Shown here: one piece after another, positions 6,777 through 52,820 of the stretch
Position numbering within the stretch: position 1 is the stretch's first letter
Layout of the letters: each line of letters opens with the position of its first letter
DNA from: Parvularcula mediterranea
GTDB lineage: Bacteria; Pseudomonadota; Alphaproteobacteria; Caulobacterales; Parvularculaceae
DNA: 64,000 bases
Assembly (NCBI RefSeq): GCF_013085255.1
Contig: NZ_JABFCX010000003.1
Span: forward strand, 372,001-436,000
Direction: 5' to 3'
Notes under the pieces: model-generated
Seen by the model: only the letters and a program-made list of their open reading frames with translations
What the model was told of the DNA's origin: nothing
The model's database searches: none
Position numbers and translations under genes: made by a program

Positions 6777-6873
6777 GTGGAGGGTTGCGATCGAAGATCG
6801 AACCCGAAACAAGACGCCGACCGGCGTCCGGGCGGCCAGCCCTCCCCATCGGAGGGCCCACGGCCCGTGAGAT
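6777..6873 (-). repeat. tRNA-trailer three-hairpin element, copy A
   Basis: Read on the minus strand, the same strand as tRNA-Val(CAC): ATCTCAC; hairpin 1 GGGCC-GTG-GGCCC; linker TCCGATGGGG; hairpin 2 GGGC-TGGCC-GCCC; hairpin 3 GACGCC-GGTC-GGCGTC. Then comes a TTGTTTCGGGTTCGATC stretch that can fold on the following GATCGCAACCC. It is the second of two tandem copies downstream of the tRNA. The stems differ from copies B and C but remain paired. Confidence 0.75.
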
Positions 6874-6882
6874 CAGGAAACA

Positions 6883-6979
6883 GTGGAGGGATCGATCAAA
6901 GATCGAACCCGGAACAAAGCCGCGACCGCGGCCCGGACCCACTGGTCCGCCCCATCGGAGATGCCGCGCATCGTGAGAT
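6883..6979 (-). repeat. tRNA-trailer three-hairpin element, copy B
   Basis: It begins about 8 bases after the CCA of tRNA-Val(CAC) on the minus strand. Order: ATCTCAC; hairpin 1 GATGC-GCG-GCATC; linker TCCGATGGGG; hairpin 2 CGGACC-AGTG-GGTCCG; hairpin 3 GCCGC-GGTC-GCGGC; then GGGTTCGATC/GATCGATCCC as a fourth stem with one mismatch. Hairpins 1 and 2 have quite different sequences from copy A, yet pairing is perfect and both linkers are identical. Confidence 0.75.
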
Positions 6980-6987
6980 AGAAAAAA

Positions 6988-7062
<75 letters not shown>

Positions 7063-8816: not shown

Positions 8817-8903
8817 CAGTCCCACGTTGTCAACGCGGAATGTCGCAGATTGTTACGAATAGCTGTTGCAGCGATGCACTGCTTCTGACAGCTAGGCACC
8901 CAT

Positions 8904-8934
8904 AAAAAAAAAGGCCGCGACCGAAGTCGCGACC
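8904..8934 (-). terminator. Rho-independent terminator of the candidate small RNA
   Basis: Nine-pair stem GGTCGCGAC/GTCGCGGCC (one G-T pair) with a TTCG tetraloop (8913-8934), followed on the minus strand by a run of T (A8904-A8912 on the plus strand). On the plus strand no T run follows, so it acts only on minus-strand transcripts. Confidence 0.85.
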
Positions 8935-8985
8935 AGTCTAGGGAGGAAACGCCCGGAAGGGCATGTTGGCAGCGCCAACACCCCT
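8904..8985 (-). ncRNA. Candidate small RNA with exposed CCUCCC (anti-Shine-Dalgarno type)
   Basis: On the minus strand the order is: hairpin TGTTGGC-GCT-GCCAACA (8964-8980), hairpin GCCC-TTCC-GGGC (8951-8962), an unpaired GTTTCCTCCCTAGACT (about 8935-8950), then terminator hairpin GGTCGCGAC-TTCG-GTCGCGGCC with an 8-9 base T run. No reading frame on this strand leads into the terminator, so it has no obvious mRNA to serve. A short hairpin-rich RNA with an exposed CCUCCC matches the design of alphaproteobacterial sRNAs that mask ribosome-binding sites. The 5' end is a guess; no clear promoter was found. Confidence 0.55.
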
Positions 8986-52358: not shown

Positions 52359-52451
52359 GGAGACGTGGCCGAGTGGTCGAAGGCGCTCCCCTGCTAAGGG
52401 AGTAAGCGGTTTGTAGCCGTTTCGAGGGTTCGAATCCCTTCGTCTCCGCCA
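52359..52451 (+). tRNA. tRNA-Ser (anticodon GCT)
   Basis: Long-variable-arm tRNA: acceptor GGAGACG/CGTCTCC, anticodon stem CTCCC/GGGAG around CTGCTAA (anticodon GCT), a large variable arm (TAAGCGGTTTGTAGCCGTTT), T-arm GAGGGTTCGAATCCCTTC, discriminator G, CCA at 52449-52451. The trailer carries the three-hairpin element on the same strand from 52460. Confidence 0.97.
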
Positions 52452-52820
52452 GTTCTTTTATCTCACGGGCCGTAGGCCCTCCGATGGGGCGGGCTGGCCG
52501 CCCGGCGACCGGGTTGGTCGCTTGGGTGCCGCCCATTGGTTTGATCCGAAGCTGCTGAGATCAAAGCTGGGTCCGGCGCGAGGTTTCCTCGCCCCCAAGA
52601 TTCAATTTTTCTGCGCCTCCCTGCTCCCGAAAACTGCCTTCTTGAGACTACGTTGCCATCCGCTGTTCTGCTTGGGTGGAGGCGTTCTGTGCACGGTGCA
52701 TGTGATGCTCGTGAGCGGCGCAACACCGCTTAGGATAAGGGTTTCATTGCGTTTCCTGCTTGGAGACTGGCGCGGCTCCGCTATCATCGGGTGCAACGAT
52801 AAAGACCTGAGGAACGCCCC
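52452..52820. other. Gene-free stretch between tRNA-Ser and the pullulanase gene
   Basis: About 370 bases. Positions 52460-52570 are the three-hairpin trailer element. The rest has no credible coding region; the plus frame at 52522-52824 has no family features. A weak sigma70-like promoter, TTGGAG then a 16-base spacer and TATCAT, lies near 52759-52786 and could serve the pullulanase gene. No other structure seen. Confidence 0.5.
52460..52570 (+). repeat. tRNA-trailer three-hairpin element, copy C
   Basis: On the plus strand after the tRNA-Ser CCA: ATCTCAC; hairpin 1 GGGCC-GTA-GGCCC; linker TCCGATGGGG; hairpin 2 CGGGC-TGGCC-GCCCG; hairpin 3 GCGACC-GGGTT-GGTCGC; then TTTGATC and GATCAAA as a fourth stem with a longer loop. 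The linkers are identical to copies A and B, while hairpin 3 has a different, fully paired sequence. Confidence 0.75.

Follow-up and report, generated by a model that had tools for sequence, protein, structure and literature searches.

The tRNA-Ser(GCT) gene in the window (i.e. the whole stretch of 64,000 nucleotides from Parvularcula mediterranea that was analysed) is trailed on its own strand by a short three-stem element, of which related copies are found throughout this genome and in other Alphaproteobacteria. We give about even chances to the reading that this element is a non-autonomous, dispersed palindromic repeat that occurs in one orientation at the 3' side of genes and strongly favours a site 6-10 nt past a tRNA's CCA. 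It looks like an undescribed repeat family, in that the open-licence papers searched describe it nowhere (an earlier account elsewhere is possible), and its copies may have an additional role as hairpin clusters at transcript ends. The copies in the window, their parts and the tRNA genes that they follow are:

52359..52451, plus strand: tRNA-Ser(GCT), the gene trailed by the element (ARAGORN and Rfam RF00005)
52452..52459, plus strand: T-rich gap GTTCTTTT between the CCA and the element (sequence)
52460..52527, plus strand: element copy 3, 68 nt, full match to covariance model R1 (64.5 bits, C2:424460-424527)
52460..52485, plus strand: region of stem 1, the outer 3 bp of which are 95% paired and covary over 117 distinct copies
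52490..52504, plus strand: stem 2, CGGGC-TGGCC-GCCCG (sequence, covariation)
52505..52521, plus strand: stem 3, GCGACC-GGGTT-GGTCGC, followed by TT only, without a U-tract (sequence, covariation)
6988..7062, minus strand: tRNA-Val(CAC), trailed by two tandem units (ARAGORN)
6912..6979, minus strand: element copy 1, 8 nt past the CCA of tRNA-Val(CAC) (covariance-model match)
6874..6911, minus strand: spacer between the tandem units; its T-arm-like GGGTTCGATCTTTGATCGATCCC looks similar to the 3' end of a tRNA in degenerate form (by eye)
6806..6873, minus strand: element copy 2, the second tandem unit (covariance-model match)

The sequence-only reading had let the copy at tRNA-Ser(GCT) start nine bases after the CCA on the strand of the tRNA, and it indeed starts at the ninth base, with 8 nt in between; the linkers ATCTCAC and TCCGATGGGG and the stems GGGCC/GGCCC, CGGGC/GCCCG and GCGACC/GGTCGC that it had listed were all found within 52460-52521. 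The interval 52460-52570 that it had assigned to the element does contain it, but the element proper ends near 52527 and the remaining bases of the interval are flanking sequence. The ten-base linker TCCGATGGGG occurs 3 times in the window versus 0.24 expected, and three was reached by no shuffle. ARAGORN detects four tRNA genes in the window. As had been claimed, the element trails two different ones in co-orientation, namely tRNA-Ser(GCT) (plus strand) and tRNA-Val(CAC) (minus strand, tandem pair), and tRNA-Val(GAC) and tRNA-Pro(GGG) lack a copy. The window further holds an Rfam match (60.4 bits) to the suhB/mmgR alphaproteobacterial sRNA family, at 8898-8969 on the minus strand.

What had been taken for simple linkers between hairpins turned out to be part of the fold: ATC of the first linker (52460-52462) pairs with GAT (52483-52485) inside the second, and since these bases both pair and covary the element has three stems. 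Stem 1 comprises this outer helix, an internal loop TCAC/TCC and the GGGCC/GGCCC hairpin (52467-52479). The first copies were aligned by hand-set stems and padded with N, so that the alignment, on which the covariance model was built, leans to structure; the model collected 120 copies, and 117 distinct copies were used for the outer-helix and per-position counts. The outer ATC/GAT pairing is absent from model R1, and the fit to that model can therefore not be its source. In the model-collected alignment this helix is ATC/GAT in 57 cases, GCC/GGC in 22, GTC/GAC in 11 and CGC/GCG in 7, with CTC/GAG, GTT/AAC and GGC/GCC as rarer types. For the whole four-helix structure the covariation score was 0.513, versus 0.146 after shuffling and at most 0.09 with slid partners, and 20 of the 21 pairs show changes on both sides. 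RNAalifold, applied to a free MAFFT alignment of 20 copies, yielded the same outer helix plus a UUU/GGG extension, i.e. the T run with GGGG; in a single-sequence fold with the tRNA, U.G pairing of the T run of gap GTTCTTTT with GGGG (52486-52489) is possible as well and gives a longer stem 1. RNAalifold and covariation together imply that stem 1 reads (UUU)AUC-[UCAC hairpin UCC]-GAU(GGG), with stems 2 and 3 behind it. The unpaired bases TCAC and TCC are conserved, as is GGGG, and behind stem 3 position 66 is T in 107 and position 67 in 74 of the 117 copies, after which mostly G or C is found. The folding energy of the window copy is unexceptional by itself (z -1.08; -2.56 together with the tRNA). 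A loop-loop kissing interaction between stems 2 and 3 (GACC/GGUC), looked for by eye, fits some copies and not others.

The source genome (a marine Parvularcula, Alphaproteobacteria, 3.2 Mb, 39 tRNAs by RF00005) was found to hold 28 copies by covariance-model search. Fourteen of these lie directly 3' of 13 of the 39 tRNAs and on the tRNA strand, one faces a tRNA in the opposite orientation and 13 lie elsewhere. If copies were scattered randomly over the intergenic DNA, assumed to make up 12% of a genome, about 0.5 tRNA-side copies would be expected here (P about 1e-17), and 0.2-0.7 in each of the four Parvularcula genomes considered next. Over four Parvularcula genomes, 50 of the 91 copies are found 3' of a tRNA, co-oriented and within 350 nt, with two in opposite orientation and one on the 5' side; the enrichment has a P of 5e-11 to 1e-21 per genome, where it should be kept in mind that the copies are related and their counts thus represent non-independent events. 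The other three genomes contribute 18 of 39 copies at 17 tRNAs (P. maris, G003), 8 of 14 at 7 tRNAs (P. lutaonensis, G005) and 10 of 10 at 8 tRNAs (G006). Measured from the RF00005 end, the distances in the four genomes cluster at about 9-13, 30-47, 78-91, 117-123 and 192-198 nt, which fits a first unit 6-10 nt past the CCA and later units behind intervening modules. Where the nearest 5' neighbour is a tRNA (62 studied copies), 61 copies are co-oriented with it and one is opposite. With respect to the tie to tRNAs suggested by the sequence-only reading the genome-wide census gave a divided answer: in raw count the copies are about evenly split between tRNA and non-tRNA sites, whereas relative to the number of genes the excess behind tRNAs is huge.

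The distribution within the genus is patchy, the copy number ranging from 0 to 39, with none in G004, a 99%-complete genome in one contig. The trailer of tRNA-Ser(GCT) carries the element in G000, G003, G006, G011, G017 and G030 and lacks it in G001, G002, G004, G005, G007, G009 (P. dongshanensis), G010 and others. Near-identical copies behind Leu(CAA), Met and Tyr, as well as at two sites without a tRNA, form a subfamily that has spread recently. No clean empty site, i.e. a pair with alignable flanks, was found in the species-level collection (one genome per species).

Copies also occur behind other genes. One follows the RNase P RNA gene rnpB on the same strand (RF00010 at L058), others start 2-6 nt past a stop codon, including those at rpoH of the source genome and of P. 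maris and at ilvE in another family, and at hisG and hslO of other Parvularcula species a copy is found within 12 nt. Using ORFs defined by a GC3 heuristic, 14 of the 17 non-tRNA copies within 30 nt of an ORF end are co-oriented with the 5' gene. The copies behind rnpB and behind stop codons imply that the address of the element is "3' end of a gene", of which tRNAs are by far the favourite per gene. Among the protein-gene copies (L075, L081, L118, L184, L186) we noted rpoH, hslO (Hsp33) and an FKBP-type isomerase, i.e. genes of protein folding and stress, a theme that at such a number is probably due to chance.

Downstream of the element, several tRNA-Ser and tRNA-Leu loci contain the 3' end of their own tRNA once more, in degenerate form, and after it another module; the longest arrays count four or five units (L156, L188, L114, L247). 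Over 59 loci the match to the last 19 nt of the own tRNA averages 11.0 of 19, versus 10.45 +/- 0.14 when permuted (maximum of 10,000 permutations 10.98, below the observed value), yet the duplication is clear in only about 11 of the 59, mostly Ser and Leu. It is not evident downstream of the Ser copy in the window, and the spacer 6874-6911 has no significance by itself in the own-versus-other tRNA 3'-end test. Different serine tRNAs within a single genome, and those of a second species, have near-identical units of the CGCTCACGCGCCGAAGGCGC type in common, and a Neomegalonema MAG contains exact 87-bp tandem units.

Several further sequences were noted at tRNA trailers or near the element. A second, unrelated tRNA-trailer repeat (AAAGGTCCGGGGGACCTTTT ... 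GCGAATGCCCCGGCAGGGGCT) lies directly behind tRNA-Leu(TAG), Thr(CGT) and Tyr(GTA) and, in a weaker form, Val(TAC); at Tyr it sits between the tRNA and the three-stem element, which is also the case in P. maris. Its loci (L237 to L241) in G000 are:

C1:713329-713412, minus strand: AAAGGTCCGGGGGACCTTTT ... GCGAATGCCCCGGCAGGGGCT repeat
C1:843837-843914, plus strand: same repeat
C2:489985-490066, minus strand: same repeat
C1:1237465, plus strand: same repeat
C2:947819, plus strand: same repeat

A hairpin module GCGCTACCGCTTCGCTACTTGAGCGC separates tRNA and element or two array units, or takes the place of part of the TCCGATGGGG linker (L074, L077, L078 and L079, near position 1520-1560; also L066, L099, L103 and L156), and from this varied placement the modules seem to be exchanged. 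The repeat CCCTCTCC...GGGAGAGGGATCGAGGGTGAGGG is found at a constant distance downstream of many copies of the GGCGC subfamily (L054, L055, L058, L059, L061, L076). Displaced 3' halves of tRNA-Arg(CCG), tRNA-Leu(TAA) and tRNA-Ser(GCT) were observed as well (L127/L183 in P. dongshanensis, L126 in a Devosia MAG, and G004:C1:994558-994619); they resemble leftovers of integrase-type insertion, and those of tRNA-Arg(CCG) and tRNA-Leu(TAA) are still trailed by the element.

Outside the source genome, an exact-pattern search of named genomes returned Parvularcula species and MAGs of Neomegalonema, Rhodobacterales, Marinosulfonomonas, Devosia and unplaced Alphaproteobacteria, with the matches mostly behind a tRNA or a tRNA 3' fragment with a CCA-T-rich end; a match in Phycisphaerales is intragenic and looks like chance. 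In an alphaproteobacterial sample of 385 genomes, strong matches were obtained in 10 besides the source genome, spread over several families, and some of these copies form arrays behind tRNA-Ser or tRNA-Thr. The viral contigs yielded no exact match that would indicate a phage-borne element.

Functional RNA stems keep G.U pairs and lose A.C pairs. In the resident stems of the element the mismatched cells comprise 65 G.U versus 61 A.C, whereas the tRNA stems of the same loci, counted in the same way, gave 84 versus 1; for the tRNA-side copies alone, with helix-end pairs left out, the numbers are 13 and 22. Counted per base, mismatches in the stems are about as frequent as changes at the conserved unpaired sites. 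The equality of G.U and A.C speaks against a sense-strand RNA fold being under selection, although it could also arise if both strands matter (e.g. in a two-way terminator), so that it is an argument and not a proof. We infer that selection acts on the structure in the source or while it moves, and that copies, once resident, decay. Rfam 15 has no family that matches the element at gathering score, nor a credible weaker match; a weak match to sX4 overlaps the tRNA and lies far under the cut-off.

According to the palindromic-repeat reading, new copies would arrive by insertion or by templated copying that recognises the 3' ends of tRNAs or other transcripts; the stems would have their role while the repeat is moved or copied as single-stranded or cruciform DNA, and not as RNA selected at each site, and a resident hairpin cluster would be tolerated behind a gene and possibly be useful there, since it can end or trim transcripts that run on past a tRNA. 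The idea, raised in the sequence-only reading, that the element targets tRNA 3' ends is supported by the 61 of 62 co-oriented copies, the fixed short spacing, the presence or absence at orthologous tRNAs and the duplicated tRNA 3' ends. A more specific version, in which 70-110 bp three-stem mini-mobile elements specific for tRNA 3' ends, each with an isotype-matched tRNA end, form ordered arrays across Alphaproteobacteria and are moved in trans, we regard as doubtful. Against the repeat reading as a whole speak that the species-level collection yielded no clean empty-site pair, that the clear duplications are confined to a minority of loci, that the pairing of the T run with GGGG would form on the sense strand only, and that a mobilising enzyme was not found: a RAYT/REP system and copying driven by a reverse transcriptase both fell away, the Y1/RAYT transposase (PF01797) and the reverse transcriptase (PF00078) having no match in the source genome (PF01797 has one weak match in G003, the genome with 39 copies). 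Moreover, the rpoH copies in two species and the copies 2-6 nt past a stop codon would fit a functional 3'-end element as well. The latter is the main rival, which we consider rather unlikely but deserving serious attention: a portable terminator or 3'-end barrier, in which the hairpin cluster directly downstream of tRNAs, rnpB and some stop codons would bring RNA polymerase to a halt or keep 3' exonucleases out, and selection at transcript ends would set orientation and tight spacing. The co-orientation of the non-tRNA copies, their closeness to the ends of rpoH, ilvE, hisG and hslO, the RNase P RNA copy and the T at position 66 all favour it, as do published hairpin clusters without poly-U (PMC8355165). 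Only about two T follow stem 3, however, two thirds of the source-genome tRNAs lack the element and most of those lack a canonical terminator too, one copy (L073) lies behind and another (L068) in front of an intrinsic-terminator-like hairpin, and the resident stems do not prefer G.U over A.C as a selected RNA hairpin would. A strict alternation with canonical terminators does not hold, few tRNAs with or without the element having one. The repeat and terminator readings are compatible, as copies would survive best where they are harmless or of some good.

Recombination between tRNA loci only, i.e. gene conversion or unequal crossing-over via shared tRNA 3' ends and no mobilising enzyme, would explain the near-identical units at serine tRNAs, the tandem arrays with duplicated 3' ends and the exact 87-bp units; we nevertheless hold it improbable as the sole process, in view of the fact that roughly half of the copies have neither a tRNA nor a tRNA remnant beside them, and that near-identical copies adjoin tRNAs of different isotypes as well as coding genes. 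Homologous exchange between tRNA loci probably does add to the spread, because different serine tRNAs share near-identical units. Least probable in our estimate is a small RNA (sponge or regulator) released from tRNA precursors like the 3' external transcribed spacers of E. coli, to which the co-orientation with tRNAs, the conserved internal-loop TCAC/TCC and GGGG and the U-rich stretch ahead of the structure could point. The presence or absence among close relatives, the absence of a wobble signature and of an Rfam family, and the many copies of different stem sequence argue against it, and the role in the tRNA transcript (sponge, processing) proposed in the sequence-only reading was not upheld, given also the genus members that lack the element.

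Compared to known systems, the element shares with REP/BIME sequences associated with RAYT that it is a short, GC-rich, dispersed and extragenic palindrome, preferentially 3' of genes, that forms tandem clusters and varies in copy number between relatives. It differs from these in its three stems with a conserved internal loop, its strict orientation, its preference for tRNA 3' ends, the lack of a Y1/RAYT transposase in the source genome, and in having conserved unpaired bases (TCAC, TCC, GGGG) and no GTAG/GGAG-type tetranucleotide at the foot of the palindrome. No landing sites of large integrative elements are better known than tRNA 3' ends, and in the attachment scars of integrases on genomic islands inserted DNA is flanked by duplicated, isotype-specific tRNA 3' ends, a feature that the element may share in part; here, the unit is only about 70-110 bp, no integrase is linked to it, and the duplicated ends are degenerate and limited to a minority of loci. 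The sponges encoded in tRNA 3' external transcribed spacers of E. coli lie in the tRNA trailer on the same strand, a location that the element shares, although it is a repeat family that shows no sign of selection as RNA; with a structured RNA gene as described in Rfam it has covarying helices in common but not the avoidance of A.C or a match to a known family. Like an intrinsic (rho-independent) terminator it places GC hairpins directly behind the 3' end of tRNAs, rnpB and stop codons, but no U-tract comes next to them. Clusters of hairpins that lack poly-U are present at many termination sites and have been put forward as terminators in common use (PMC8355165), and these too are GC-rich and close behind the gene; the element differs in being one homologous repeat family with a patchy presence, and is a candidate terminator. 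The closest published case found is the archaeon Methanopyrus kandleri, in which half of the tRNA genes have a palindromic motif about 10 bp downstream (PMC5217627). In both cases a short and fixed distance separates the palindromic sequence from many of a genome's tRNA genes, whereas the archaeal motif consists of one short palindrome that was described as confined to M. kandleri (PMC5217627) and the element has three stems, forms arrays and is widely but patchily spread in Alphaproteobacteria.

A 70-base repeat with a tRNA-end address, a fixed orientation and arrays that include copies of the tRNA end would be a simple system for the study of site recognition and of the evolution of tRNA trailers. 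If, instead, the element ends transcripts, it would constitute a portable terminator family without a U-tract, which would account for tRNA 3' ends in a group in which canonical terminators are scarce.
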